This document shows, piece after piece, positions 26,907-62,680 of a DNA stretch of 64,000 bases (positions are counted from its first letter, which is position 1; every line of letters starts with the position of its first letter). The stretch lies in contig JAVLRN010000008.1 in the NCBI GenBank assembly GCA_032821775.1, positions 1,426,001 through 1,490,000 of the forward strand, given 5' to 3'. The position numbers and the translations under genes are program-made. The notes under the pieces are model-generated. The model made no database searches. It worked only from the letters and a program-made list of their open reading frames with translations, and was not told where the DNA came from. This DNA comes from Sanguinoderma infundibulare (Eukaryota > Basidiomycota > Agaricomycetes > Polyporales > Polyporaceae).

Positions 26907-28225
26907 TTATACAGCCGCGTCGCATCCTTCTGCGCCTGCAGGGTCTAGTGTGCGATCAGTGATGGATACGAGTCCAAGTACAGCATGAGGTGTCGCACAC
27001 GTACCGGCAGCGCATCCACTACATTCCAGGTCTCCCGCCTTGCAAACCCATGGTGAGTCGCCCGTGAGCCAGGAGTATTCTTCCTCACGTCCAGCCAATA
27101 GCGCGGCATACGAGTCCGAGGTAGGGGTAGGGGCCGCCTCCCTTGCTGAATCGTCGCCGCGTGCCGACAACACCGCATCCAGGCCAGCGGCGTCACATAT
27201 TTCTCCTAGTGTTCCGATGCAATCAGCGACGCATACGAGCCTACAACACAAGGCTTCCCATACGCACCTGCAGCGCATCCGCCACAGTCTGGGTCCCCTG
27301 CTTTGCAAATCCACGAGTCGCCCGCGAGCCAGGCGTACTCTTCTTCCCGAGCGGCCAACAGCGCGGGGTCCGAGGTATCCGGGGCAGCCTCCTTTTTGAA
27401 GAGCCTTATGCCCTTGAGCCAGCCGAGTACATCGTCTTCAGGTGCACGTTCGACGACATCGTTGCGCTTCTGGAGTTCGTACCCCCACGACTTGGTAGCG
27501 TGGTCGTATTTCTGCAACGAGGATCCAGCACAAGTTACTTATCAGCCATTGCATGCGTGCCGGTCCAGGTACAACGGTAAGTTTGACGGTGGCGTCCTCA
27601 CTCACATTGGCGTCGGATATGTCGAGCACCCGTCCCTCGGCGCCGGTGCGATCCTGGAACGCAGTGAGGTGGCCGCAGTGGGAGCAGTACACGTCATGCG
27701 CAAGCTTGCCCCCAGTCCTACCGTCGCGCAGCGCCTCGACCAGCCACTCGCGCGTGTGGACGCCGCGCTTGAGCGCCGTGAAGACCCTGCCCATTCAAGT
27801 CCAAGTATTAGAGCCGCGGTGCGAATGGACCGAGAGCCTGTAAGTAGGGACTGAAACGAAGGGACGAGACGAACCAGTCGATGAACTCCGTCTCCTTGCC
27901 GCAACGCGGGCACACCTGGGGCGGTCCGGTCGTGTACGTCCCGCCGATGTCGAGCTTAGGAACGTCATACTGGAGGAGCTTCGAGAGGCGGCGCTCCTCG
28001 TCGTTGTCGATGATCAAGGCATACCCGCGGCCAGGACCGTCTGACGCGTCTTTGAGTTCGACGTACTTGCCGGTGGCGCGAGCTTCCACCGTCTAGTAGG
28101 GCAGATGCGTGCATTAATGGCAGAATGTGACAGGGAAACAAGCACGACATGCGCACCTTGTGAACGACCGGGAAGGCGGCCACGCTGATCACGATGAAGG
28201 ACGTGAGGCGGATCGGGGACTTCAT
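26907..28225 (-). CDS. Constant/variable secreted precursor 1 (Cys-rich cargo)
   Basis: Exons 28225-28157, 28092-27875, 27786-27606, 27511-27268, 27205-27005 and 26944-26907 join to 316 residues. Constant part: hydrophobic start MKSPIRLTSFIVISVAAF (signal peptide or anchor); an acidic segment; CPRCGKETEFIDW, where the W codon is split by an intron; GVHTREWLVEALRD; then YCSHCGHLTAF, so two CxxCG knuckles about 50 residues apart that could bind zinc. Variable part: KYDHATKSWGYELQKR, with a possible kexin site, then two copies of a Cys module (REEEYAWLAGDSWICKAGD..CGGCAAG and REEEYSWLTGDSPWVCKAG..CSGCAA). Each module ends in an intron at the same point, so exon plus intron were duplicated. The final exon reads PAGAEGCDAAV. 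I know no characterised homolog. A secreted or surface peptide precursor is inference. Confidence 0.65.
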
Positions 28226-32191: not shown

Positions 32192-33619
32192 TGTTATGAC
32201 ACTAACATCGCGGTTATCATTTTTTCTTTACTACCCTTACCCCGCACGGACTTATGCCACTATCGCTACCATCTCGGACCTCACATCCCTCACACGCACA
32301 TAGGGATTATACCCATACCATCCACTCCTCCACCGACCGTCCATATCCATGGACGTACACACTCGTTGTCCACAACTCTTACATATCCTCGGACTACTAT
32401 GGACCTATACGTTTCCTCCCACTTCAGGCCATACCGTCAACAGTTCATTCCTTTATCACCTATTGATATATGCTCGGACGACACCATCCCCTCGCACATA
32501 TCAAGACCACTTTGAACCTATAAGACACGTTCACAAGATCGTGTCCCAACTATTCCATACCAGTACAGTAGACTGTGTCGTACACAATCTACCCACGCAT
32601 CCTCCTCAGAGACTGGGCCATCAACAGCCAGTCTCCACCTCTACCATCATCAGTAACTGTGCTAGACACAGTTCCCTATCAGTCCTTACTCCAACTATCC
32701 TACATGGACTTGCGACCAGACTAGACACGCCCACGTGACCGTGTCCCGGCAAGGACATATATCAAGCGCTCTAGACTGTGTCCTACACAGTCTAACCTTC
32801 CTCTAATACTCAGGCTCACTGTGACTCCTTCGACAGTCCACGGTCTATAGTCATATCCAGAACATTTCACCAAGCATGGAAGTGTTCTCAGTACAACTCA
32901 GGATTCGTCAACAGGACTCATCCCGACTCGGACCCCGCCAGGGCTCAATCCACAAGTCATACTGCACAGTCCACCGTGCAAAGTTCTCCACGATGACTCA
33001 TCATGACTCATCCACAGTCATGCTGACTCATTCTGCAGTCACGATGACTCACAGCACAGTCCACAGTGCACAGCCCGCAGCAGTGACTCACCATGACTCG
33101 TCCCGCAGCCATGCTGACTCATTTCACAGTCACGATTACTCAGTCCACAGTCTACAGCAGCAGTCTGTATATACCATACATAGTACTTTACCTAGTTACA
33201 ACCTGAGTCAGCCGCAGCACTCAGATGTATATATAAGGGGCGACGCACCAGTAGTGACCCCCAGTTTTCAGTCTCCTGTTTATCCAATGGAGTTTACTCT
33301 ACTCTATAGAAACTGCCTAGTTTCTAGTTCATAAGTCACACCAATAGGGGACCACCCCCATGTCTCCCTAAGTCGTGTACAAAAGGTCTTTCAGAAGATA
33401 CTTTAGTCGCCTGCATCGTTATCAGGCCGTAGTAGTCAACAATTGTAGATCAGACATCTAAGTCATTGCCTACAGACTAGGGAACACTCCTTTGGACATT
33501 CCCGTCTCTTGGGTTGTTCGGACAACAACTCATGGCTTTACTTCGATAAGTAAGGCTAGATCCAATACTAGTCTACATATTGATACCTGCATAAGGTTTG
33601 CAGGTATTGAGACGTAACA
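32192..33619 (+). mobile_element. Solo LTR (1428 bp) inserted in gypsy gag-pol
   Basis: Starts TGTTATGACACTAACATC, ends GACGTAACA, and is flanked by the 5 bp direct repeat CCATC (32187-32191 and 33620-33624). Removing it with one repeat restores the host frame (..DLHAI then GSLWCTPRL..). It has a TATA-like atatataagg at about 33226, AC/CT-rich stretches and many catgactca/actcatc repeats between 32990 and 33150. No coding capacity. Typical of an LTR left after recombination between the two ends of an element. Confidence 0.88.
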
Positions 33620-36600
33620 CCATCGGGAGCCTTTGGTGCACTCCAAGGCTGGACACATCGCCCGAATATGAGTATTTGGTCGACAGTGACCAACCTGCAA
33701 TGCCCCTGGGCGGTGATTTGAGCTCCGGATGCAATAGTGTGCCTGGTTTACAGACAGTCAGCGACTGGTCTGATTCAGAAGACTCGGAGTCTGCCTGGAC
33801 AGACACGGATGGTTTGGAACTTACAGATTGGGATGTATCTGAACCATATGAGCTTGCATTAGGGTATTATGATGATGAAGTCTTTGGGGACATCCCCCGG
33901 TTGACTCCAGTCAAAGTAATTTGGCCAGCAATGAATCAAACATTGCCCCAGACATGCCACGATGGCTGGCCGAGACGCAGCATTGGAGACCTGCTTGCGG
34001 CATGCGTGGAATGACTCCTGAGGCAGGGCAGGCCATACTGCTGCCATGAAGTCGGAATAGGCCTCGGAGGTGACAGTGCCTCCATTCACGTCTACCAAAC
34101 GGCTCCTGGTTTGCACATCATTTTTCATTGGAATGTGGAGGACGTACTAGTCGAAACAGCTTCTCTACAAGATCCCGAGTTTGATGTGGTCTGGTACTAC
34201 CAACAGTGAGTGGTGGAACAGAAGGCTCCAGACCACCAGGAATGCTTCCTCCAGGGCTGCGATGAGCCAGGCAGTGCCATGGGAATTGCTCTCAACCGCG
34301 AGCTGTCGAGGCAGCTGGAGGAGGAGTTTCCTTGGCCGGAGGGAGGTGACTTTCATAAGTGGCAGTTTGCTGTACTGCCGAGCTTCAAATTTGCCACAGT
34401 GTGCGATCTGTACCTAGGAATCAGGGTGGATATCCCTGTGTGCCTCCTTGAAAATGGAAAATTTGATGCACTGAATTATTTTGCATGAGAAGTGCGGGGA
34501 CGCCTCTGAGTCCCCGCATTTATGCTGGATGACTTGGAGGGTGAGTTGAGAATCCTGTTCACTCGTCCACCGCCACCGGAGGTAAGTGGTTCCATCCCTC
34601 TCTTTGCGGTATGCCCAAAAACTCACCCAGCGAATTCAAATGATGACCTCGGGGCCCTGCAGCATAACGCGGCTGTGCCTCAGGATTTCTCATGCCTGAT
34701 TCCGGAGCCTGTAGTCATTGTCGTCAATGTTAATGGCCAGCCGGCCTGAGCCTTGGTAGACTTGGGCTCCCTGTCGGATTTTGTCTCTGCAAAGTTCACG
34801 CATCAGCTTAATCTGAAGGTTTTCGAACTGACAAAACCATTACCTGTCCAGCTCGCCGTGCAAGGCTCCTGTGCTAAAATCAACTATGGCTGCCGTGCCC
34901 AACTCAAGTATCAGCGCATTTGGATGGAGAGGTACTTCGACATGATAAACTTATTGAACTACGATCTGATTCTGGGAACACCGTTTTTGTTCCAGCACAA
35001 AATAACCCTGGGACTCAACCCGACTACGCTGGTAATCGGGAGTGTGCCGGCCCTGCCCATCGAAGGCCATCAAGTCTGGACGCTGCAGTCCCACGCAGCT
35101 GATGTACTCGACGATGCTCTCGAAACTGCATGGCAGGAACTGTGTAAGTATGTGGATCCCATTTGTAAAGAAGCCAGCGACTCACCATTGCCCCCATTGC
35201 GTGCCATTAACCACCGCATCCCACTCATAGATCCCGACAAGGTGTATTCGTGGCAGCCGTCAAAGTGCCCAGATGCACACCTAGCTAGCTGGGTAGAAAA
35301 ATGGAATGTGTACCTAAAATCAGGATGTTGGAAATATACGAGTGCTCAGAACACTTCACCTATGCTGTTGCTCATGAAACCAGGGACTGGCGTGAAGGGA
35401 ATTCCACCGCAGCTCTGGGTTGTGTGTGACCTGCATGAGCAAAATGCCAACACAAAGAAACTGATGTCGCCTCTTCCGGGTATGGAGGCGATTCTGCGGC
35501 GGTTATCTCGAAAGCTGTATCAGATGCTAATTGACGGAAAGGACACATATGAGCAAATTCATGTCGACCCAGAACATGTGAATCAGACAGCGATGACCAC
35601 ACCTGACAGTAATATGGTTAGTTTGGTTCTGCAGCAGGGTGATTGTAATGCGGTCACCACATACCAGAGCCTAATGAACTACATTTTCGGACCGCATATT
35701 GGTGTGTTTCTCGACGTATACCTTGACGACATTGTTATCTATTTGGATTCCCTATCCGAACACATAAAACACATCAAAATGGTGGTGGATATCCTGTGAC
35801 GAGAGAAACTGTACCTCAGCATGACAAAGCTTTGATTCCTCTGCTCGGAAATGAAAGTGCTCGGCCGCATAGTCGATGATCACGGAATCCGTATGGACCC
35901 GGACAAAGTTGACAGCATGCTCAACTGGAAGGTTCCGACATCAAAGGAGCTCCTCCGCAGGTTTCTCGGCTCAGTTGGGTATCTAGCAGACAATATTGCG
36001 ACAGTATGCATCCCCATGGGGATGCTGGCCTCGATGACTGGTGCGATGGCATCATTTCAGTGGGATTTTACCCATCAGCACGCATTCGATGAAATCAAGT
36101 GGTTGGTGCATGCTCACCGTGAACACCGCCGGGTGCCGCTGGACTACTCGGCCGTGGCAGCCCCTATTTGGCTTGTTATGGATGGATCTCATGGCAGAAT
36201 AGCCGGGGTGGTATCGCAAGGTGACGATTTTCGAAGCGCACGAGTAGTGGCCTTCTTCTCAGCTAAACTGTCCTCTGCACAGCAGAACTACCCTGTACAC
36301 AAAATCGAAATGTTAGCAGGAGTTGAAGCGATGTTGCAGCACCAGGACATACTCCTCAGAGCCTCATTCACATGGGTAACGGACCACAAGGGGCTGGTTC
36401 ACTTACTGAACCAGCAGAACCTGTCAGGCAGGCAAGCACAATGGCTTGAGAAGATCGCAGAATATGACTTCAAAATCGAGTACGTACCGGGTGCCGAAAA
36501 TGTCCTGGCGGACGCATTGTCACAGATCTATTTGAATGATCAGCCTGGCATGGTACGTGCCTCGTCTGAGTACACAGAGTACGACGAAACTGCGCCTGCA

Positions 36601-38566
36601 CCTGCCGTGCTCGCAACGCACTCGATCTCCGTACCCCTACTCATCAACCTCGAAGGTCGAGCCGCCACTGAGCTCACCGCCCCTGCTCTGGAAACCACCC
36701 CTTGATGCTCCTCACGCCTTTCTGCAAAGGCGGCACGTCTCCTGCCACCGATGGCATCGCAGTTGGTGGGCTCCCAGACACAGATGCAGTCGCGTCTGCC
36801 CGGGGAGAACAGCGTTTCACATCCACATGATCGTGTACCACTACAGCAGACATCTTGCTCACCATCCCCAGCATCATCCTCGTCATTGGCAGTGGCGGAG
36901 GGTGTGTACGTTGGCCAGGACATCATGGTGGGAAGCCAACAGACGGAGGGCGCCTGATGTGCGTCCGATAAGGGGCCAGGTGGGAAGGCAGCTCACCCAA
37001 ATAGGAGACATGGGTGGGGGGTGGCCCCGGCAGAAACCGGCCACCCTGAGACGGTGGCGGAATTTGCAGCTCAAATCAAACGTGTCGTTCTGCGTCCTCT
37101 CCATGCTGAACGACAGGAGGGCGCATCCGGGACCCCAACACACTCGAACACGACTGATCAGCCTTGCTCCGGTGACCTAAGCGACCCCCTCTCTGCTCTA
37201 CAACCCCTCTCAGGTGATGATCACACTCAAAACAGCAGGATCAAATCGAAGACGACCTCTAGGACAACAAGTCAGCCTCCAGGTGACCATGGCTCAACAG
37301 AGAAGCCCTCCCGCTTGCACTCACTTCCTGCCTCTACCACAATGGCAGGAACGTCGACCATCTGCACGGAACCAGCCGTTATGGCTGCCAGAACAACTGA
37401 GGCTCAACTACTCGACCACATCGCAGCCACACACAACGGGCTGCATCTGGAGGGCGCAATATGCTGCCGCTATGGAGAGGACCTGTTTTTTGGTTCAATT
37501 GCTGTAAACCTTCATGAGTACAAGAATTTTCGAGTCTTGAATGGCCTGGTTTTTCTCCGTGATCAAGGATGGGAATTACTATGCATCCCACATGTTATTG
37601 TGAACAGTAGAAATGTTCGTGAGATTGTTATCTCACACGCACACTTGCTGTTGGCCCACTTGGGGCCCAAAAAGACGTCAGACTGCCTGTGCGATCATGT
37701 CTGGTGGAAGACATTGCTTTTGGACGTCCAGGCTTACTGCGACTTGTGCAAAACGTGCAAGCGCAGTAAGCCGGCCAATCAAAAGCCCTATGGGCTGCTT
37801 AACCCCCTGCCTGTACCGGCTACACCCTGGGAGGCAATTGGTATTGATTTCGTGGGACCTCTGCCTGAATCCCAGGACCACGATGGCATGTATGACTCCA
37901 TTACTACAGTAATCGACCTTTTGACTGGCATGGTACACCTCATCCCGAGTCGCACAACCTATCATGCTCTGGATGTGGCGGAACTCGTGTTTTCTGAAGT
38001 ATATAAATTGCACGGACTCCTGAAAGCGATTGTGAGCGACCGGGACATGCTATTCACAAGCACGTTCTGGTTGCATCTGCATAAACTCATTGGGACTGAG
38101 CTCCGCATGTCCAGCGCATACCACCCTGAGTCAGATGGCTCTACAGAGTGGGCAAATTGCACAGTTTCGCAGATGCTGAGACAGTGCATTGAGCCAAACC
38201 AAAAGGACTGGGTGGCCCGTCTTCCGGGCATCGAGTTCACAATCAATATGGTGCGTTCTGACACCACAGGATTTGCTCCTTTCTTACTGAATACGGGCCG
38301 AATGCCACGGCTGATGATCTGGAACCGCACTTCAAAGGATGAGTATCCTGGTGTATGGGTTTATGCACAAAAAGTCAAAATGGCTGTAATGGCGGCACAT
38401 GACAGTATAATCGCCACGCATGTGAAGCACACGTGAGATGCCAATTGGCGTCGCTGCCCTGCTCCTTTTACGGAAGGAGATTTGGTGTATATCTCTACAA
38501 AGAATATTGCAATTCTGAAGGGACTGGCCCGGAAGCTTGCACCAAAATACATGGGCCTGTACAAAA
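33620..38566 (+). pseudogene. Gypsy pol: protease, RT, RNase H, integrase (12-stop frame)
   Basis: One continuous frame. Protease-like ALVDLGSLSDF has L where the usual motif has S or T after the catalytic D. Reverse transcriptase has WVVCDLHEQNANTKK and YLDDIVIYLD. RNase H has WLVMDGSHGRIAGVVSQ and TDHKGLVHLLNQ. Integrase has the HHCC end (CDLCKTCKRSKPANQ) and core IGIDFVGPLP, IVSDRDMLFTS and YHPESDGSTEWAN, so D, D and E are kept. In-frame stops are TGA at 34012, 34207, 34486, 34507, 34747, 35797, 35833, 36703, 36955 and 38434. No frameshift was found. Many Arg codons have become Trp or stop. The frame is cut by the copia element after GLYK and resumes at 51956 on the minus strand. Confidence 0.88.
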
Positions 38567-38917: not shown

Positions 38918-39263
38918 GGTTATGAGCCCTGATCGATGTTGTGGATACTGCGCCACTCACTGCTGGCTGCGTTCCACTCCTCACCAGCTCACCTGGTGTT
39001 TTTACACGTTTATCATCTATCCCTTGTCGCCATTATGGCAGACTATCCATGTGTTGGATCAGGCGCGATCATACGCTGCCAGCCACACATGATGGTGGCT
39101 TGGATGTGGTGCGATCTTTGTTATCGCTGCCTGCCAATGCCACAAGAGGGGGAACCCATGCCGGTATACGCTCCCGGCATTCCTCTCTTCTCTTTGATTG
39201 TCATTCAGAATGATGACTAACTAGTCTCTTCTGTCCAGAAGTCAAACCATCTTATCGATCGCC

Positions 39264-41693
39264 ATGTCGAAGGACCTCATCAACGCCATTCCTCCCCTCA
39301 CTGGCCCCAACTACCTTGTGTGGGCGCCAAAAATGCAGGCTTTCCTCCAGTCCAAGAGTTGTTGGGTCAAACCGATGACTAGGACCAAGCCCGCTACCAC
39401 CGCCGATCAGGACGAGATCGACAAGTGGGATGAGGACAACTCATCTGCTCAAGGCAACATCCGTCTCCGTGTCGATGACGCCATCGGCACCGCGATCGAG
39501 TCCAAGACCACCGCCAAGGAGGTCTGGGACCACCTCAAGGACACCTACGGCAAGCCCGGCATCCCAGTCATCTACCAGGACTTCCGCGCCGCCATGGGCA
39601 TCACCATCCCTGCTGATGGCAACCCCATCCCAGCGATGGACAAGCTCTGCGCTCACTTTCAAACCCTCGAGACCAACAAGTTCACCGTCGCTGAGCACAT
39701 CAAGGGGATGATCCTCCTCTCGAAGCTCCCGCTGGCGATGGACCCCGTCATCCAGGTCTACATCTCGGGGATCACTGGCACAGCGGCGAACCCTGCTGTG
39801 CACCAGGTGACCTTCGATGAAGTATGCAACCGCGTAATCATGCACTGGGAGCAGTGCCAGGGGTGCCACCAGCAGAAGCCATGCGACAGCACGAACAAGA
39901 TCTCAGCGGTCAAGCGCAAGCCGCAAGACCCTACCTTCCACCAGCAGCAGCGCCCGCAAGGGCAGCAGCAGCAGCAGCAGCGCCCGCATGGGCAGCAGCA
40001 CCAGCAGCAGTGCCCTCAGGGGCAGCAGCAGCAAGGCCAAGGCCATCATGGTCGGCACGGAGGGCGTGGCCGTTTCCAACAGCACCAAGGTGCACACCAG
40101 CATGCCCACATCGCACATGTCGCTGAACTCTCTACCATCACCAAGGGCATGCTGCCGCACTTGGAGGACCCGCGTGCACTCCTGTGCAAGCCCGTCCGCG
40201 CAGAGACTGGCCCCAACCACCAGTACCCTGCGCTCATGCGTGCGTTCACCCTTGCGACGCAGTTAGGCGTGGAGCCGACCATCGAGCACATCAAGACGCT
40301 CGAGGTGCTCATCATGGCCAGCGGCCAATACAGCCGCGTCAACGAGGACGCCCTCAAGGACCCCGTCCCGATGCTGGTGACAGAGCCATACTCAATGCAC
40401 TCATCACCGGAATCCTCCGCGACGTTCAGTGCAGACTCCCGCCACACCAGCCCGGACGTGTCGCACAGCCCAATGCCCTTCGCGGGCCCCAGCAGTGCGC
40501 AGATCGTTGAGGTGGACAGCGACAAGGACATGGACTGCGAGGACCATGAGCCCAAGCGCCGCCGGCGCACCCTCAGGGAGCGCATCAGGCTGCACCTCAG
40601 GGAGCGCATAGGTGTGGTCGCCGAGGACGTGGACATGGAGGACACCGTGTCCCTCAGGCTCAGCAGTGAAGACGAGCAGGATGACGATGTCGAGGAGTTC
40701 TTCAATCGTCAATGGTCAGTCCCTTCCCCACTACACCATGAGTTGTATGCTGACTGCACGCCTCAATTGGCAGTGACTAGTATTGCAAGACCCTCTTGTC
40801 GTGTAGTATCATCACGTGTACCTGTAGCTACACCTGTATTACAAGTGGCTACAGAAGATAATATATGTATTCACTGCTCTACATATGCAGCGTGCGCGAA
40901 GTGTAAGGGGAAAGCGAAATCAGTTGTTAACAACGACCTTTGGATGCTCGACTCAGGAGCGTCCATGCACTTCACTTATTCTATGAGTGATTTTGCCAAT
41001 TTCCGCTACTACAAGACCAAACTGCCACTCAACACTGCTGATGGCGTAACTTATATGACTGGTGAAGGAACTGTGTTCCTACTATTGGAAACAGGCAGAA
41101 CATTAAGGCTGAAAAATGTCGCCTTCGTTCCTAATCTCACCAACAAACTCATTTCTATGGGTGCTCTACTGCGAGACGGGATGTCAGTGCATGCTACTAC
41201 CACCAAGATCTCGCTCTACCGCAACAATGAGCGTGTCGTTTCTTTTGAACTGCGCAATGTTGGTGATACAATTTATGTTATTTATGTGCAGCCTGTACAG
41301 GCACAAAACATGGTTGCGCTGAAAAGCGTAGATCATGAAACTCTCCACCAAGTGTCCGATTGTCGAGACTCTCAAAAAGGACTCGATTTGCTGTGGATGT
41401 GCTGAAGGCAAAATGCCATCACAATCTCACCCGATTGACAATTGGCATGCATCCCGACCTTTTGAGCTGATCCATGTTGATCTGAAATCTTTCCCTGTGC
41501 TGTCATACCACAAGTACCAGCATGCAATCCTACTCTATGATGATTATTCATTGTATGTGTGGGTGATTTGCCTTCGCACCAAAGATAATGCACTGCAGGC
41601 CACACGACAATGGTTCTCATATGTTGAAATGCAGTTCAATGCGAAAGTAATCAAGTGGAAATCAGATTCTGGAGGTGAACTCAAATCACATGC
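39264..41693 (+). pseudogene. Copia gag, protease and integrase N-terminal half
   Basis: ATG at 39264. Gag resembles the Ty1/copia type (LTGPNYLVWAPKMQAFLQ; AKEVWDHLKDTYG). It is followed by a Gln-rich stretch encoded by cag repeats (39945-40040) and an acidic linker. Protease is LWMLDSGASMHFT (catalytic DSG). A frameshift near 41330-41400 moves the reading to the frame with CCGCAEGKMPSQ and the integrase core start (FELIHVDLKSFP; KWKSDSGGELKSH). The frame is then cut by the X insertion after the codon for A in HA. The 713-codon first frame is open, so gag and protease decayed little. Confidence 0.85.
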
Positions 41694-42712
41694 TGTAGGG
41701 TCCCCTACGCGCCCTGTGCCCAGAATCTTCGCATTCCGCGTGGTTCCCTCTCGCACCGATCGGTCACCACCGTATGCACCATACACGACTCGGGCCATCG
41801 GCCTTCCGCATCGTGCAGGCTCTTCGACTACCACACGTATCTACCGCGCGGTTACCACGCATCGTGCGTGTCCCCCTTTGACCGCACGGCTCCTCTTCCT
41901 CGCGGCCCGATTACGCACATGGATTACGGGTGCCCTCGCACTCGGGGATCGTTCGGTACGTCCTCGATCGTATGCACGTCTCATTAAGTGCCACAGGACG
42001 TGCGGTGGCATGGCACAGTACCTTGTGGCTAGGCCTCCGATCGGTTTAGTACGATACGCAGCTATCTTCGACATGGTCACGATGCGTCGATCACAGTCAC
42101 GTGTTGTGCTCGGCATGTACAGGATTCTTTGACTCTTTTACGATACTGCACGTTTCAGCTCGCGGTTGTTAGGTAGTTCTGTCACAGGTGTCTCTCGGAC
42201 TCTCTTTTAGGTTACAGTACGGTTCCACATGGTCTCTGTAGCTACGTTCCAGAGCTATGGTAGTCTAGTGGTGTTTGTGCCACTGCGCGGTATGCACAGT
42301 GTGTGTCCTCTTTGTACTTAGTTTTGGATTGGTGTATGGATTCTCCAGGTTACCCCTGGGCCTCAGATCTCTCGTCTCTCGTACCTGCGTGCGTACGACT
42401 CCCGTCGGGCTCCAAGTAGCCTCTCCGCATCGACTTCGAGCCTCTCTCCGTCAGTACGTTGTGCGATTGCACGTACTCCGCATCGTTCTTCCTCCGCAGT
42501 GCCCGTGCGCACCGATCGTATCCGCATCGTATACTACCGCGTGGTAGTTGGTCTACGTGGCCGCACCGTAGTTGAGTCTCCCCCTTTCCCTACCATTCGG
42601 TGGCCTTTAGGCTTGCAGCACACCTGTACCACCTCGCATCTTTCCGTCACGGCCTGTCCTTTCCCCGCGTTGATCCTCCGGTTCTACGCGCAGGTTCCCC
42701 GTGCACGTAACA
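41694..42712 (+). mobile_element. X element, left copy (TG..CA, 1.02 kb, LTR-like)
   Basis: Begins TGTAGGGTCCCCTAC and ends GTGCACGTAACA. A near-identical copy lies inverted at 55299-56318. No gag or pol; the long frames reading through it carry no known domain. Ends and size fit a solo LTR or a non-autonomous retroelement. The left flank is copia (ATGC at 41690) and the right flank is the precursor gene (GCGC at 42713). The two flanks therefore do not match each other, but each matches a flank of the other copy. Confidence 0.85.
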
Positions 42713-43081
42713 GCGCGCGCCCGGCTGGGCGTCCGGGTTCGGTTAGACATACGATGACGACTCGGTTGCGGAGCCCGTGGCCAAACGCGCTTCTGGCTGG
42801 GCATCCGGACTTGGTTGGACCTATGACGACGATTCTGTCGCTGAGCCGGCAGCTAAGCGTGCACCGGGCTGGGCGTCCAGCTTCGGTTGGACGTACGATG
42901 ACGACTCGGTTGCAGATCCCGTTGCCAAACGTGCGCCTGGTTGGGCTTCCGGGTTTGGTTGGACCTACGATGATGATTCGGTCGTTCATGCGGTATGCAC
43001 GTCAAACTGTACACTTGTGACCATCGCTCATCAGTACTCCAGGAACGCGCGAACGACCCCGCCCCCGGCTGGCGCGCCTAG
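42713..43081 (+). pseudogene. 3' part of precursor gene 2: tandem Lys-Arg-flanked peptides
   Basis: This is the end of the gene whose start lies at 56319-57044 on the minus strand. The frame gives four 24-residue repeats: APGWASGFG(stop)TYDDDSVAEPVAKR, ASGWASGLGWTYDDDSVA.., APGWASSFGWTYDDDSVA.. and APGWASGFGWTYDDDSVV... The first has TAG where the others have the TGG of the second Trp. After the last repeat a 50 bp intron (42993-43042, GTATGC..CTCCAG) leads to a 12-codon exon ending in APGWRA at 43081. The intron is nearly the same as the last intron of precursor 3. The repeats are separated by Lys-Arg, the usual kexin cleavage signal. Split by the X insertion and moved by the inversion, so not functional as it stands. 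Confidence 0.8.
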
Positions 43082-52312: not shown

Positions 52313-55298
52313 CTCCCCCTTGCTAAGTACGCACTCGCAAGTATGCAAGCGGATATGGCGCTTTAAGCTGGCTTAGGGAAATGCAAGCCAAGATGAGGAC
52401 GGAAGTGGTGGAACTTCACAGTGCCCAAATTCTTGGTGAAAATATCAGTGGGATTATCAGTCCCTTCGACATAGAATATGTCGGTGATACCTCGATCATA
52501 CACTTCGCGAACATAATGGTAACGGATGTCGATGTGCTTCGACCTTGCTTCCATGACAGCATTTTGTCCGATGTGTATGGAGCCTTAGTTATCTCCAGAT
52601 AGTGGTACGCGACCGAGGTTATAGCCAAGTTCAGCAAGCAAGTTGTGAACCCAGACTATTTGGCAACTACAGTCACTCATTGCCATATACTCAGCCTCAG
52701 TGGAGGAAAGAGCAATGGTCTTCTGCACATATGAAACCCACAAGAATGCGCAGTTCGCTAACTTTAGCATGAAGCCGGTTTGCGATCGTCGAGAGTGTGG
52801 GTCTGAAGCCCAATCACTGTTGGTTGCAGCAATTAAGCCGAGTTGAGAATCGCCATTGTAAACCAAGGCATAGTTCTTGGTACCGATGAGGTAGCAGCAA
52901 ATGTGAAGTGCCTTGCTTAGATGATCCTCGGTCGGGTTTGCGGCGTACTGTGCCAGTTTGGTCACAGCGAAAGCTATATCTGGCCTCATACCTAGCATGA
53001 GGTAGAGTAGAGAGCCGATAACTTTCTGGTACCTGGAGCAAAGCTCCGGTGTAGCTTGTCCTGTGTTGGGGGCAGGTATGTAACCCGCAGGGAGTGGAGT
53101 TGAAGACGGTCATGTGTTTGTCATGCCGCAGCGGTCCAGTACTTTCTCCAAGTATGCATGTTGATCTAAAAAGATCTTTTGGCCAATACGAGTGATGCGC
53201 ATGTGCAAAAACTCCTTTGCATCGCCTAAGTTGCAGCATTCCCATTTGTTCATGAAGCGAGCTTTAAGTCTAGCTACAAGCTTCTTGTCGCACCCACAGA
53301 AAAGCGCATCGTCAACATAGACAATCACAACTACTATAGCACCATCAGAGTGACGCTTGTAGATGTATAAACCTGCATCGTTGGTGAGCCGGTGATAGCC
53401 CATCAACTTCATGGACTCAGACAAGGTGCGCCACCACGCTAAACCTGCCTGCTTAAGTCCATAAAGAGCACGCTTCAATTTAAAGACTTTGTGCTCGGAG
53501 CCAGGGATGTGAAATCCTTCTGGCTGCTCCAGGTAGATCTCCTCGTCCAGCTTGCCATACAAGTAAGCACTGCGAACATCAAGTCCTGAGATGTGCCAGT
53601 CCTCGAGTGCTGCAAGAGCCATGATGAGACGAACTGTCTTGAAGCGGACAACTGGGGAGAATATCATGTCGAAGTCTTCACCTTCAACCTGGGAGAAGCC
53701 TTTTGCTACAAGTCTGGCTTTCTTGTGACCGTCAGTTTTGACATCGAATACCCAGCGGTTTTTCACGACCTTGCGTCCTTTCAGACGGTCGACCAAGTCA
53801 TAAACGTCGCACCTGTGAAGGGCCTCTAATTCTTTGTGGCAAGCGGTAAACCACTCCTTTTGCTCAGCCTTTGGTAGACTGGTAATATCATGGTAAGTCC
53901 ACTCGCGCACATTGGGCGGTGAGACTTTCTCCCCCTCATCTGGTGGAATCGCCTTTGTGATAAGGTATTGGATGAGACTAGCTCCCCCTTCCTGGCATAG
54001 TTTTGCCACATCAATTCTAGAGGCACGCAAGACACCTTTGACTTCTTCTGATGAGTGACCTGACGACTCTTCTTCTGATTCATATTCATCTTCATCCTTG
54101 TCGTCATCGTCATCATCGTCATCGTTGGGGTCTGAGCGATCTGGACTAGGAGCGGCTGACTGAGGTTGAGGCAGGAGTTCTGCAGGTATAGGTATTGGGT
54201 CTGAGCCCAAGTCCTCCTCTTCCTCATCATCGTCGTCGCTACCACTAGACGAGATTACAGGGGTTGATTCCCTGTGCATGCACATCGAAGGTGGAAGTGG
54301 AATGGGTGGTCTGCGTACAGCGGATCTATCGCGTGATTGTGGAAGTGATCGGGCATGGCTAGGTCCGGGAACCTGCTCATCCCTTGAAGGTGGTGCGGTC
54401 TGAGAGCGACTCAGTATCTCGCCAACCAACCTCTTCCACGATCCCCGTTTCTCAACATCCTTAAAAATGTCCATAGGGTGACGTGATTCACCATAGACAT
54501 TACCTTCGCGAACTGGTACATTCCGCTCCCTCACAGACCATCGTGGTGCGACTGACTGTTCAACCGGAGGAGGTTGCGGCGGCAGAGGGTGTTGCACTAC
54601 TGGTACATCTCCTCCGTGCTGTGCGCGAGGTTGAGGAGGTACAGGGGATACAGCCAGAGCTGGTGCATGCGCTTGGCCTTGTGCATTTCCCTTGCCCTTT
54701 GTGGAAGGTTTTCTGGGAGGACGACATTGCTCTTCATCGTCATCAGAGAGTAAAGAAGGAGTAGTTGCCTGGTCCATAGGTTCAACTGGTTCAGGTGCAC
54801 TCTGCTGCCCATGTCGCTTCTTTTTATGTGTACATTTCGGAAACAAACTTTCGTCAAATAGTGCTTGAGCAGCTATGAAGATGACATTGTTTGGTGAGCG
54901 CATAAACTTATGATTGTGGTTACTGGCACTGACACCAAGATAAATCATCAGCTCAGATTTGGGTGATAATTTATTCCTGCGGACTTCGGGGGGCAAAAAG
55001 ACATATGCACCATAACTGAATACACGTAGGTGACTGATGTCTGGCTTGGTACCATTCAAAAGTTCATAAGGTGTCCGCCATTCAAGGTGACGAATAGGTG
55101 TCCTGTTGTACAGGTGCGCTGCATGTTCGAAGGACAATTCCCACCAAGATTGAGGGATGCAGGCGTCATGCCACATTGCCTCGCTCTTGTCCATGAGTGT
55201 ACAAATGATTCGCTCAGCGCGGCCATTCTGTTGATGAATATGAGGCACGCTAGGTATGATCTCAATGCCTCTGTCTTTGAGCATGTTGTTGAAGGCGT
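52313..55298 (-). pseudogene. Copia integrase second half, reverse transcriptase and RNase H
   Basis: On the minus strand the frame opens at the X junction with AFNNMLKDRGIEIIPSVP and HQQNGRAERIICTL (the integrase E), then WELSFEHAAHLYNRTP, an acidic linker and the reverse transcriptase (WVFDVKTDGHKKARLVAKG; GLDVRSAYLYGKLDEEIYL; VIVYVDDALFCG with the YVDD site). A TGA follows GMTNT at about 53110. RNase H follows (NSDWASDPHSRRSQTGF; SSTEAEYMAMSD), then a TAA in GDN(stop)GSIH at about 52585, and the end KHIDIRYHYVREV and NPTDIFTKNL. Two stops and the upstream frameshift make it non-autonomous. The first ~90 codons of the open frame on this strand are X-element sequence, not protein. Confidence 0.88.
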
Positions 55299-56318
55299 TG
55301 TTACGTGCACGGGGAACCTGCGCGTAGAACCGGAGGATCAACGCGGGGAAAGGACAGGCCGTGACGGAAAGATGCGAGGTGGTACAGGTGTGCTGCAAGC
55401 CTAAAGGCCACCGAACGGTAGGGAAAGGGGGAGACTCAACTACGGTGCGGCCACGTAGACCAACTACCACACGGTAGTATACGATGCGGATACGATCGGT
55501 GCGCACGGGCACTGCGGAGGAAGAACGATGCGGAGTACGTGCAATCGCACAATGTACTGACGGAGAGAGGCTCGAAGTCGATGCGGAGAGGCTACTTGGA
55601 GCCCGACGGGAGTCGTACGCACGCAGGTACGAGAGACGAGAGATCTGAGGCCCAGGGGTAACCTGGAGAATCCATACACCAATCCAAAACTAAGTACAAA
55701 GAGGACACACACTGCGCATACCGCGCAGTGGCACAAACACCACTAGACTACCATAGCTCTGGAACGTAGCTACAGAGACCATGTGGAACCGTACTGTAAC
55801 CTAAAAGAGAGTCCGAGAGACACCTGCGACAGAACTACCTAACAACCGCGAGCTGAAACGTGCAGTATCGTAAAAGAGTCAAAGAATCCTGTACATGCCG
55901 AGCACAACACGTGACCGTGATCGACGCATCGTGACCATGTCAAAGATAGCCGCGTATCGTACTAAACTGATCGGAGGCCTAGCCGCAAGGTACTGTGCCA
56001 TGCCACCGCACGTCCTGTGGCACTTAATGAGACGTGCATACGATCGAGGACGTACCGAACGATCCCCGAGTGCGAGGGCACCCGTAATCCATGTGCGTAA
56101 TCGGGCCGCGAGGAAGAGGAGCCGTGCGGTCAAAGGGGGGACACCCACGATGCGTGGTAACCGCGCGGTAGATACGTGTGGTAGTCGAAGAGCCTGCACG
56201 ATGCGGAAGGCCGATGGCCCGAGTCGTGTATGGTGCATACGGTGGTGACCGATCGGTGCGAGAGGGAACCACGCGGAATGCGAAGATTCTGGGCACAGGG
56301 CGCGTAGGGGACCCTACA
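55299..56318 (-). mobile_element. X element, right copy (inverted)
   Basis: Inverted, near-identical partner of 41694-42712 (1020 against 1019 bp). On the minus strand it is preceded by precursor gene 2 (GCGC at 56319-56322) and followed by copia (acgc, complement of 55295-55298). Confidence 0.85.
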
Positions 56319-57044
56319 GCGCTCGGCGACATCGCGCTTCAAGACATTCCACGACTTGGCCGCGTGGTCATATTTCTGCAACGAGGCACCGCCAGTCATC
56401 ATTCACTGCGTGGCCGCGAGATATCCGCCATCGCGACTCACGTTGGCTTCCGAGATGTGGGCCATGGGCCCCTCTGCGCCACTGGCGTCCCGGAACGCCG
56501 TCAGATGGCCGCAGCGGGAGCAGTACACGTCGTGTTCGGTCTTCTTCCCTATCTTGCGGTCGCGGATCATCTCAACGAACCACTCGGGGGTGTGTACGCC
56601 ACGCGCGAGCGCAGTGTAGACCCTGAAAGACATTCCAAGTCAGCTGCAGTAAAATTGGACCGAACGGTTCGCGGTGCCAGGCTGCCGCAATGGAGTTGAC
56701 GAACCAGTCGATGAACTCGGTCGGCTTGCCGCAGCGCGCGCACACCTGCGGCGGGTGCGTCGTGTACGTGCCCTTGAAGCCGAACTCGCTGAAGTCTTCC
56801 CCGAGGAGTTCAGAGAGATGGTGCTGCTCGTCCTCGTCGATGAAATTGAGGTACTTCGCATCCTCGGCCGGCGGGTCCTCGAGCTCGATGTACTTCACAG
56901 TGCCGGTGACGCGAGCCTCAGCCTGGCGGGGATGTGTGAGTAGTTGTAGAAGGAACAAGAATGCGGCGTCCGCACCTTGTGGACGGCAGTGAGTGCGACC
57001 ACGCTGATCACGGCGACGGATAGGAGGTTAAGCGGCGACTTCAT
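56319..57044 (-). pseudogene. 5' part of precursor gene 2 (constant domain)
   Basis: Exons 57044-56976, 56922-56705, 56622-56442 and the start of exon 4 (56375-56319). Start MKSPLNLLSVAVISVVAL; then YIELEDPPAEDAKYL, CARCGKPTEFIDW, GVHTPEWFVEMIRD, YCSRCGHLTAF and HISEAN; exon 4 begins KYDHAAKSWNVLKRDVAER and is cut by X. Intron positions and phases match precursors 1, 3 and 4, including the split W codon. Removing X and one 4 bp repeat joins DVAER in frame to the repeats at 42717. The precursor was therefore intact, apart from one TAG, before X inserted. Confidence 0.8.
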
Positions 57045-58524: not shown

Positions 58525-59520
58525 CGTAAGTATAGCACTGGCAGTTTTGAGTCAGGACAGTGCTGTTCAGGTGAATTCCTCTCCAGCGCAGTGCTCCAAG
58601 CCCCTTCCAACCGCGCGGGAGGTGTTTCAGAACGCGCTCGCAATCACCTCGAGCGTGATAGATGACGCAAGATCCGGGAGGAGGGACAGGCCCGCCTGGC
58701 AGGAGCCTGAGGGAATCGAACGTGATGGGAAAGCGCTTACAAATAGATCCAAACAGTCGCTTTCCCAGGAAGCCGTGACACACGTGTCACGACCGCACAG
58801 TTGAGACGCCTGCCTATGGAACTTCAGCTTCAAAACCATGAGGTTCTCGATGTATGGCGACCTTTTTGACACGGCGGTACTCCAAGATCTTTTCTTGAGC
58901 TCAATTTGTGCACTTTTACCTTCCTAACAGCCGCTAGGCCTACCATGTTCTTTGCCCTCCTCGGCACGTGTGGCACATCAGTACTTCCGGAAATTGCTTA
59001 ACCGTGCTTAACGGGGCCATTAAGCACCGTTAAGCACGTTAAGCAGCCGTTAAGCACGATAAGCCGATAAGCCGTAAGCAGGTCTCGAAGCGCCCGTAAG
59101 TGCCGCCACTGACGACCTCCCTTCTACCAGCACCGCTCCCCCGCACTCTCACTGGCATACGGCGGGGGACAAAGAGATGTCTCCTCGACACGTTAGAGGT
59201 AGAAGTTTGCCCAGGATATCCACCAAGATCCGGGGGGGAGGATGGCCATTTTCCGTTAAGCCGTTAAGCCGTTAAGCAAAATCCGACTTTACTGATGCAC
59301 GGACTCGGACTCGGAGTCTCGCGGCGGCTCTACGAGTAAGTAGTCTCGATACTCAGGTCCTTTCGCGATGCTTGCAATGTTGTCCAAGATATAGCTAGAA
59401 AGCCAGCTTATTTAGTCATGCTACTCGATGTGCGCTTCATCTGCCTCCCGTGTCTCGCCCGTAGTTCACTGCGAAGCTGAGGTTCATTCCTTGAGGGACG
59501 CCGCAGCGTACTCGTCCCAC
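58525..59520. repeat. Segmental duplication block shared with 28.6 kb and 63.5 kb
   Basis: 58525-58680 is the reverse complement of about 28575-28735. 58690-58960 and 59310-59520 match 63550-64000 in the same orientation (shared aatcgaacgtgatgggaaagcg, tttcccaggaagccgtgacac, ttctcgatgtatggcgacc, ctacgagtaag). The second match is interrupted here by a TIR element. No coding function recognised. Confidence 0.75.
58974..59299. mobile_element. MITE-like TIR element with ttaagc subterminal repeats
   Basis: Absent from the duplicate at 63.8 kb. The ends are inverted: catcagtacttccgg, aaattgcttaac on the left and, read inverted, catcagtaaagtcgg, attttgcttaac on the right. Dense copies of gttaagc/gcttaac lie near both ends (59000-59080; 59250-59276). 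No coding capacity. The pattern resembles non-autonomous hAT-like elements; superfamily uncertain. Confidence 0.65.
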
Positions 59521-60106: not shown

Positions 60107-61103
60107 CTACGGAGTTTGTTCCTGGCGTACTGATGAGCGACGGTCGGAATCGTACAGTTTCACATGCGTACCGATACAGCATCCGCATCATCGTAGACCC
60201 AGTTGAACGCTACAGCCCAGCCAGGCGCACGTTTATCAACCGTGCCAGCGACCGAGTCGTCATCGTAGACCCAGTTGAACCCTACAGCCCAGCCAGGCGC
60301 ACGTTTGGCAGCGGAATCGGCGACGGAGTCGTCATCGTACGTCCAGCTGAACGATCCACCGGCAGGCCAACCGGGCATACGTTCAGCGATGTCGCGCTTA
60401 TAACCTTGATGCCCCCACGACTGTGCAGCGTGGTCGTATTGCTGTGCATGCAACGACGGTTCACCACATATCATCAGTAATTGCATCACGGCGAGATATC
60501 CGTCATCGCGACTCACGTTTGCCTCGGAGATGTGGGTCATCGGGCCCTCTGCGCCCGTCGCGTCTCGGAATGCGGTCAGATGGCCGCAGCGGGAGCAGTA
60601 CACATCGTGTTCAGTTTTCTTCCCGATCCTGCGGTCACGGATCGCCTCGACGAACCACTCGCGCGTATGGACGCCGCGCTCGAGTGCCGTGTATACCCTA
60701 CCCGTTCGAGGTCAACTACAGCATGAACGTGAATACGGGCTGCATAGATGGACAAACCAATCTATGAATTCAGTCGCCTTGCCACAGCGTGGGCACACCT
60801 GCGGCGGGTGGGTCGTGTATGTCCCAGTGAAGCCGATCTCGCCAAAGTCGTGCCCGAGGAGCTCGGAGAGGCGGCGCTCCTCGTCCTCGTCTATGAACAG
60901 GAGGTACTTCGCATCCTCGGCCGGCGGGTCCTCGAGCTCGATGTACTTGTACTTCGTGGTACCAGTGGCGCGAGCCTCCGTCTATCGCAGATGCGTGAAT
61001 GGTTGAAACGCAGAAGTGAGTGCGACATACGCACCTTGTGAACGACAGAGAACGCGACCACGCTGATCACGATGAAGGATAAAAGGCGAAGCGGCGACTT
61101 CAT
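60107..61103 (-). CDS. Constant/variable secreted precursor 3: tandem Lys-Arg peptides
   Basis: Exons 61103-61035, 60981-60758, 60697-60517, 60441-60172 and 60121-60107 join to 252 residues. Constant part: MKSPLRLLSFIVISVVAF, YIELEDPPAEDAKYLLF, CPRCGKATEFIDW, GVHTREWFVEAIRD, YCSRCGHLTAF, HISEAN. Variable part: QYDHAAQSWGHQGYKR, DIAER, then MPGWPAGGSFSWTYDDDSVA..KR, APGWAVGFNWVYDDDSVA..KR and APGWAVAFNWVYDD. The last exon adds four residues. The repeats show as about 72 bp direct repeats in DNA (60180-60350). Kexin cleavage after KR would free peptides of about 22-24 residues. No damage seen, so this is the best candidate for an active member. If the last intron is not spliced, the frame ends five codons later at 60160. 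Confidence 0.72.
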
Positions 61104-61676: not shown

Positions 61677-62680
61677 TCAGTAAACGGTCAAATATTCGCT
61701 ATATCCAGGGCGCACCACAACGTTATCCGGCGCATTATATCTCTTTATATTCCAGAGAGGGTGCCAACCGACCAGCTCACTATTCACGGCGTCCGAACCA
61801 TCGGTCGCATTATTGACATTCGCGAGCTCGTCCACGCGTTCCTAGCATGTTGCTGAGCGTTGCATACGAGTGTAGTACCCTTTGGAGTACACGCACAGAC
61901 AGAGCGTCCGGAGCCCCCGTGTCCACTCTTTGAAGCCATATAGGGTGCCAGTTCGCTTCTGCAGGCGGGCGTGCGTCGCGCTTCTGGACTTGGTACCCGA
62001 ACGACTTGGCGGCGCGGTCGTAGCCCTGTAACAACGGTCCATCATCGATCAGTCATTGCATGACTGGACGACAGTTCGCATGGTGACAACGCGGCTCACG
62101 CTGGCTTCGGATATGTCGAGCATCCGCCCCTCTGCGCCACTCTGGTCTTGGAAGATCATCAGATGGCCGCAGCGGGAGCAGTACACATCGTGCGCAGTTT
62201 TCTTCCCATCCTGCCCTCCCGCAGCGCTTCAACTAGCCACTCGCGAGTGTGGACGCCGCGCTCGAGCGCCGTGAATACCCTGTCCATTGGAAGCTATCCA
62301 TGAGAATAAAGGCATGAATGAGACATTGCAACAAAGGACAAACCAATCAATGAACTCGGTCTCCTTACCGCAACGCGGGCACACCTGCGGTGGGTGGGTA
62401 GTATGTGTCCCGACGATGTTGAGCTCGGGGAAGTTGTGTTCGAGGAGCTCCGAGAGGCAATGCTCCTCGTCTTTATCGATAATCAAGGCGTACTTGGGCC
62501 CATCTGGTGCTTCTTTGATCTCCATATACTTGGTGACGCTAGTGGCACGGGCCTCCGTCTAGTACAGAGGCGTGAATAGTTGTAGTAAGCAAGCGGGAGC
62601 GATATACACACCTTATGGATGGCAGAGAAGGCCACGACGCTGATCACGACGAAGGACAAGAGGCGAAACGGCGACTTCAT
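61677..62680 (-). pseudogene. Constant/variable precursor 4 (WHPxW cargo), one-base frameshift
   Basis: Exons 62680-62612, 62558-62344, 62279-62100, 62025-61897 and 61841-61677. Constant part: MKSPFRLLSFVVISVVAF, YALIIDKDEEHCL, CPRCGKETEFIDW, GVHTREWLVEALRE. Exon 3 is 180 nt where all three paralogs have 181: one base is missing in aggatgggaag near 62205. The second knuckle (YCSRCGHLMIF) is therefore out of frame. Variable part: GYDRAAKSFGYQVQKR, then NWHPIWLQRVDTGAPDALS; after a 55 bp intron (61842-61896) a 55-codon exon repeats the module as GWHPLWNIKRYNAPD. Apart from the single base everything is open, so this could be a very young pseudogene or a sequencing error. Confidence 0.65.

Follow-up and report, generated by a model that had tools for sequence, protein, structure and literature searches.

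Probable KEX2-processed repeat proteins with a conserved Cys4-type carrier domain in the polypore Sanguinoderma infundibulare

A 64,000-nucleotide stretch of contig JAVLRN010000008.1 of Sanguinoderma infundibulare (the window, with positions counted from its first letter) encodes members of a family that we consider, with good confidence, to be KEX2-processed repeat proteins (KEPs) built on an unusual folded carrier of the Cys4 type, the peptides of which would be released by kexin. The kexin-type architecture is well supported by sequence comparison, and from it we infer the cleavage, secretion, and function of the precursors. KEPs are a known class, for which a definition and a survey of 250 secretomes (PMC6339444) and a further survey of 1461 strains (PMC7329392) are available, and KEP peptides were detected by mass spectrometry in four Agaricomycetes, together with a proposal of STE13-type trimming (PMC9769878). 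As in the Agaricomycete KEPs presented there (Coprinopsis cinerea KEP 490115/497993 and Pleurotus KEP 1091723), we observed a signal segment, tandem short units, and dibasic sites, as well as X-Pro or X-Ala starts in some members and Trp in some cores. Unlike the KEPs in the parts of PMC9769878, PMC6339444, and PMC7329392 considered here, a conserved carrier, predicted to fold, with invariant Cys residues stands ahead of the units, and this carrier also occurs in relatives without a signal-like N-terminus. New are thus the widespread carrier and its no-signal relatives, which make the origin of a KEP family unusually visible.

The precursor gene at 60107..61103 on the minus strand (copy C) consists of five exons (61103-61035, 60981-60758, 60697-60517, 60441-60172, and 60121-60107, with intron phases 0, 2, 0, 0) and encodes 252 residues. 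A preliminary description of the stretch had placed here a precursor with a hydrophobic start and a CxxCG..CxxCG domain, and indeed the spliced frame is open and contains both motifs. Exon 1 (61035..61103) encodes a hydrophobic signal segment of 23 residues, with a maximum 11-residue mean hydropathy of 3.0, and is followed by a phase-0 intron. Exons 2-3 (60517..60981) encode the carrier domain, which aligns as PF26731-type and contains CPRCG and CSRCG. Exon 4 starts with the linker QYDHAAQSWGHQGYKRDIAER (60379..60441), in which the first KR site is part of KRDIAER, and continues with core unit 1, MPGWPAGGSFSWTYDDDSVADSAAKR (60301..60378), core unit 2, APGWAVGFNWVYDDDSVAGTVDKR (60229..60300), and core unit 3, APGWAVAFNWVYDDADAVS, which together with a 50-bp intron (60171-60122), EQTP, and the stop codon spans 60107..60228; the last exon contributes the four residues that end the frame. 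Tandem units of 24 residues had been announced; the repeats are tandem, but their lengths in copy C are 26, 24, and 19(+4) residues, and two of the three Trp units end in KR. With Tandem Repeats Finder, we detected two arrays with a 72-base period, one at 60188-60339 with a score of 234 and the other at 42723-42982 with a score of 280. The GT-AG borders of the introns hold by construction, since we selected the sites by eye on that criterion. The splice model is supported by the identical intron phases 0, 2, 0, 0 in copies C, E, F, and G and by annotated relatives that have the same exon joins (EFIDW-VYTAL and the PYDH junction). Judged by this comparison, copy C is a real gene. TATAA lies 61 bp upstream of its ATG.

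Searching the whole genome (48.9 Mb, 87 contigs) with each carrier half revealed seven carrier copies. The window contains copies A, B, C, and D; its end is separated from copy E by 1.35 kb, and F and G are found on contigs C10 and C3, respectively; A and D were absent from the precursors listed previously. Five copies (A, C, E, F, and G) are open after splicing, with five or six exons each, and two (B and D) are broken. In every copy, a TATAA precedes the ATG at a distance of 57-87 bp. The five open copies have a signal-like N-terminus with a hydropathy maximum of 2.7-3.0, compared with at most 1.7 in 28 no-signal relatives. The cores in copies C and E are units of the pattern GW/AW...W-x-x-DDDSVA...KR, and F and G each have a single AWSGxxxxAW(L/I)xKR-like unit followed by ETAPDA..KR; tandem near-identical units were thus found in C, E, and the broken B, with one unit each in F and G. 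The tails of C and E have three KR sites each, of which the first belongs to the linker and the other two separate the units, in agreement with the kexin-type KR spacing claimed earlier. The Trp units start with MP, AP, and AP in copy C and with AP, AP, and VP in copy E, the first of each being preceded by a single Arg. Units like TTAAGCACG/CCGTTAAG are also repeated in short tandem stretches between copies B and C (59016-59277).

Copy A (26907..28225, minus strand) is, by its splice model, an open paralogue of 316 residues with the same carrier and a KR behind it. Instead of KR-flanked Trp units, its C-terminus has two EEEYxWLxGDSxW(I/V)CKAGDxxCxGCAA-like units without dibasic separation, and the tail contains one KR. 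Each of these Cys-rich units (26907-27437) is interrupted by an intron right behind the Cys-rich stretch, in which the other copies differ. Copy D (about 61780 to 62680, minus strand) has a frameshift in the carrier, within exon 3. Its tail pieces, read by hand, include NWHPIW, which resembles AWHPIW of the Fomes relative P0016, and a second possible WHPLW stretch.

Copy B had been described as a second precursor in two pieces. Both pieces are present, but they belong to a broken gene. The carrier half (56319..57044, minus strand) is cut in the linker after ...KRDVAER, and the core half (42713..43081, plus strand) contains four Trp units with a TAG in the first; the last exon would read ERANDPAPGWRA when translated by hand. 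The halves are 13.2 kb apart in opposite orientation and are split at the carrier/core junction. Each adjoins a 1.02-kb LTR-like copy (55299..56318 on the minus strand and 41694..42712 on the plus strand); the two are about 98.6% identical and oppositely oriented. We take this stretch for an LTR because it has TG...CA ends and copia domains lie nearby. The segments 39225-42712 and 53110-56318 hold gag and Pol_BBD domains of the copia type on the plus strand and an 859-residue frame on the minus strand that resembles, by eye, a copia integrase/reverse transcriptase. Together with the inverted LTR-like copies, these features suggest an inversion by which one half of gene B was displaced by 13 kb. 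Another retroelement, probably of the Ty3/gypsy type, is marked by gag, reverse transcriptase, RNase H, and integrase zinc-binding domains at 30257-38433 on the plus strand, in the interval from copy A to copy B.

The carrier comprises about 120 residues and precedes the peptide units. We pooled its relatives from protein searches giving 6, 29, and 82 rows (the 29-row set from the best 7990 candidates) and obtained 84 database proteins, 64 of which have the label PF26731; all named relatives are from Agaricomycetes. The label is precomputed on the homologues, the best three of which are 43-50% identical to copy G. In the alignment, the CxxCGK...EFIDW...HDVYCSxCG residues of the labelled relatives are present in copies C, A, F, and G, by which the carrier is of the PF26731 type and belongs to a family of basidiomycetes not confined to this fungus. 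The preliminary description knew of no described family. This stands insofar as a Pfam scan of the window and genome copy proteins, with a set of models that does not include PF26731, gave no family above the cut-off, the PDB contains neither a match to the predicted carrier fold nor a solved relative, and no paper naming PF26731 was found in the open-access literature; it does not stand insofar as a labelled basidiomycete family exists and the KEP class is described. Likewise, among the titles and abstract beginnings listed for the open-access literature, none dealt with the carrier; some relatives, such as a Lentinus protein with seven units, may well be within the supplementary tables of the KEP surveys.

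The conservation of the carrier raises the question of catalysis. Borosins carry an N-methyltransferase domain that modifies their own C-terminal cores, and plant BURP cyclases also modify their own cores. In the same way, the carrier might be an enzyme modifying the cores behind it. Twenty columns are invariant in 57 relatives from both sides of the secretion split described below, and the invariant residues include four Cys, two His, Asp/Glu, and Arg; moreover, the fold is predicted confidently and has no PDB match. The precursors also share with borosins a conserved N-terminal domain, a C-terminal core, and a basidiomycete host. Unlike borosins, however, the five copy proteins scanned gave no methyltransferase match, and we recognised no motif for a cofactor. 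Invariant Cys pairs are equally expected of a plain structural zinc site; zinc-ribbon families remained below the cut-off (the best was Zn_ribbon_NUD with 23.2 bits for copy G against a cut-off of 24.8). We therefore regard a self-modifying carrier as improbable.

To place the copies among their relatives, we used an unrooted carrier tree of 62 rows and 129 columns. Signals were judged by hydropathy only, and the rows were labelled signal-like or no-signal (at most 1.7), P0012 being counted as signal-like from its later Met. Signal-like N-termini, with a maximum 11-residue hydropathy of 2.4-3.3, were found in Trametes, Fomes, Daedaleopsis, Lentinus, Earliella, Lenzites, Cubamyces, and others. 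No-signal rows come from Sebacinales, Cantharellales, Boletales, Russulales, Agaricales, Gloeophyllales, and some Polyporales (Panus, Steccherinum, Meripilus, and Phlebiopsis). We looked up the taxonomy of Cristinia, Panus, Steccherinum, Meripilus, Phlebiopsis, Earliella, Fomes, Serendipita, Gloeopeniophorella, and Gloeophyllum. One branch with a support of 100/100 separates 27 secreted rows and six with an incomplete N-terminus from 28 no-signal rows and one incomplete row. The signal thus changes once among the labelled rows, and eight times when the seven incomplete rows are treated as a third group, for which the least possible number is two. The database row nearest to the carriers of this genome is P0016 of Fomes fomentarius. 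The no-signal relatives are, from their sequences, probably intracellular, and because of their wider spread, we infer that the no-signal form is the older one; the alternative is that the secreted form was lost elsewhere.

We compared the tails behind the carriers with shuffled versions of themselves. In the secreted clade, 15 of 29 tails contain the pattern W-x(2-8)-W-x(1-3)-[KR]R, with 53 matches in total, compared with a mean of 1.7 and a maximum of 6 in 1000 shufflings of the residues within each tail; this is an effect size and not a clean P value because the pattern was framed after viewing the sequences and because neither the units of a repeat nor the related species can be counted as independent. 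The Trp pair alone is less striking, with 76 matches against a shuffled mean of 50.5 and a maximum of 68. Such an arrangement of dibasic sites speaks against precursors that are secreted whole, with the Trp repeats as a structural or surface-binding tail (for example for cell wall or polysaccharide) and the KR sites unused. In addition, an acidic residue follows the motif in 38 of 51 occurrences (23 Glu and 15 Asp), and, as seen by eye among the relatives, the spacers between units diverge while W-W-KR stays. What speaks for secretion of whole precursors is the variable length of the units, copy A without KR flanks, and the no-signal relatives, which keep Trp motifs with KR in four of 27 tails, so that the Trp motif appears to have a value without cleavage. 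On balance, we consider it unlikely that the KR sites are unused. The preliminary description had asked whether homologues also end in KR-separated repeats; members of the secreted clade, from Polyporales, do. Outside this clade, the case that the description had named as refuting does occur, since the no-signal relatives combine the carrier with a Trp tail and few KR. Of their 27 tails, 20 contain W-G-x-W-W-L, five other Trp pairs (Panus and Steccherinum, in several copies, with LWIPSNPW), and two none. It is plausible from these short motifs that W-G-x-W-W-L is homologous to the secreted Trp pairs, for which KWGPVWICKK in P0032 may be compared.

Fourteen of the 29 secreted-clade tails are without the exact motif, namely, short gene models, P0016, P0019, P0045, P0054, and copies A, C, and E of this genome. 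Fomes P0016 has KK in place of KR, and P0019, P0045, and P0054 have cores of another kind. In the two Cubamyces proteins P0045 and P0054, the same carrier is followed by repeated xTYGWDTISC(L/I)(T/A)KR units with one Trp and one Cys. Among the other relatives, P0007, P0008, and P0030 have 7 to 11 units that resemble one another. KEP cores in general are highly diverse, and many are without homologs, according to the portion of the survey considered (PMC7329392). Copies C and E differ from the exact motif in the position of the dibasic site: KR stands ahead of each core, and DDDSVA is found where the relatives have KR. The unit of Fomes P0002, HTDGWPAGFNWIY-KR-EESAVEDTEPA, and that of copy C, APGWAVGFNWVY-DDDSVAGTVD-KR, have nearly the same aromatic core, but KR, which directly follows the core in Fomes, comes in copy C only after the whole acidic spacer. 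With cleavage behind KR, the peptides of the relatives would end at the Trp pair, and those of the B, C, and E type would start with the Trp pair and have the acidic tail behind it.

Under the KEP reading, which we prefer, the signal exon would bring the precursor into the secretory pathway, where the carrier, predicted to fold, would escort the C-terminal tail. Kexin would then cut behind KR/RR, and KEX1 carboxypeptidase would take off the basic residues. For copies C and E, an STE13-like dipeptidyl peptidase may take off the leading X-Pro. The AP starts had indeed been read as suiting a dipeptidyl aminopeptidase, which fits these two copies; in the secreted clade as a whole, X-Ala or X-Pro comes directly after only 28 of 120 dibasic sites. 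Processing would thus yield linear peptides, each about 20 residues long and containing two Trp, such as GWPAGGSFSWTYDDDSVADSAA, GWAVGFNWVYDDDSVAGTVD, GWLGGSRWLFDDDSVADTVA, and their kin from C and E, and these predicted peptides are available with exact masses as detection targets. The calculated monoisotopic masses are 2489.012 for unit 1 of copy C and 2260.918 for the same unit without MP, 2171.944 for unit 2 of copy C without AP, and 2334.092 or 2166.002 for unit 1 of copy E; 2340.033 is shared by unit 2 of copy C in untrimmed form and unit 3 of copy C in trimmed form. Most likely, the peptides would serve to communicate or interact with other mycelia or with other organisms. The precursors are similar to ascomycete alpha-type pheromone precursors in being apparently secreted and in having kexin sites and, for copies C and E, dipeptide starts, but inspection by eye showed neither a related core nor a related carrier; the mating pheromones of basidiomycetes are lipopeptides.

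Comparison of copies C and E indicates how the two parts of the gene have evolved. In exon 3, 6 of 181 bases differ, all synonymous (pS 0.14), and in exon 2, 25 of 224 (pS 0.28, pN 0.065); exon 4 has 47 differences in 264 bases and 15 gap positions. For carrier exons 1-3 together, pN is 0.033 and pS 0.181, and for the core, 0.196 and 0.378, respectively. Between these two copies, the carrier is thus held while the cores vary more in amino acids; pN/pS of the core is below 1, and positive selection is not indicated between them. The introns differ at 0 of 75 (intron 3), 1 of 50 (intron 4), 4 of 53 (intron 1), and 6 of 60 bases (intron 2), and the flanks at 12 of 298 (3') and 102 of 266 bases (5'). 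Exchange between the copies is likely because the divergence is patchy, being raised in exon 2 and the 5' flank, with introns 3 and 4 near-identical. The last unit of copy E resembles the first unit of copy C. In the older pair F and G, exon 4 has diverged as far as the introns (45 of 144 bases, against 26-43% in the introns), compared with 24 of 209 in exon 2 and 18 of 181 in exon 3. A decaying multigene family without present function would account for the two broken copies among the seven, but it is very improbable in view of exon 3 of C and E, free of amino-acid change at a pS of 0.14, and of five copies that stay open across five or six exons.

We also searched the genome exon-wise for processing and modifying enzymes, so that all counts are lower bounds. 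P_proprotein, the signature domain of kexin, has one match, the frame of which is interrupted by a TAA, as expected if it contains an intron. DPP-IV_N matches are present, which is no proof of STE13 because 5 of 14 control genomes match too. UstYa (PF11807) has at least 10 matches, eight of them on the main contig of the copies, and none in the 14 control genomes. Kexin-released cores could be cyclised oxidatively via Tyr/Trp by UstYa-type enzymes, giving a RiPP like the dikaritins (ustiloxin/phomopsin type), with which the precursors share secreted, KR-flanked, repeated cores with aromatic residues; the cores are rich in Trp and Tyr, and a partner enzyme need not be clustered. Unlike in dikaritins, no UstYa match was found near any of the seven copies, the nearest being about 480 kb from the array, and none on contigs C10 and C3 with copies F and G. 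In the part of the KEP survey considered, UstYa (DUF3328) neighbours were reported for 103 of 1680 basidiomycete KEPs, or 6.1% (Umemura 2020, PMC7329392). We consider the cyclised products quite improbable. The eight UstYa matches lie within about 210 kb (C8:1973886-2185428), possibly a dikaritin-type gene region far from the precursor array.

Returning to kexin-released peptides on a conserved carrier, the origin of the family is best accounted for by a single conversion of a probably intracellular carrier with one Trp tail, which would have gained a signal exon, several copies of the tail, and dibasic sites; afterwards, the peptide part would have diversified while the carrier stayed conserved. 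The conserved carrier makes the origin of a KEP family traceable, since one branch parts proteins with a signal-like N-terminus and KR-spaced Trp units from no-signal proteins, mostly with a single Trp tail, and the birth of a secreted peptide family thereby becomes testable. The carrier is also a handle for collecting such precursors across polypore fungi, even with completely different peptides. A bolder variant, which seems to us rather unlikely, is that the carrier is a dedicated binder of, or self-acting enzyme for, the Trp-pair tail, intracellular with one W-G-x-W-W-L in most Agaricomycetes and exported in Polyporaceae, where it would modify or fold on the tails before kexin acts. If this were true, the released peptides would mimic, or pair with, an ancient module of the cell interior and could act on that module in neighbouring mycelia.

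Two further observations concern the surroundings and the assembly. A cytochrome P450 exon is located at 16262-16843 on the plus strand, about 10 kb from copy A. DPP-IV N-domain matches with identical scores recur at about 12-kb steps at C6:2796207-2854569 and C16:9661-98579, as well as at C6:3359554 and C20:99062, which looks like tandem copies together with duplicate (haplotype) contigs in the assembly.
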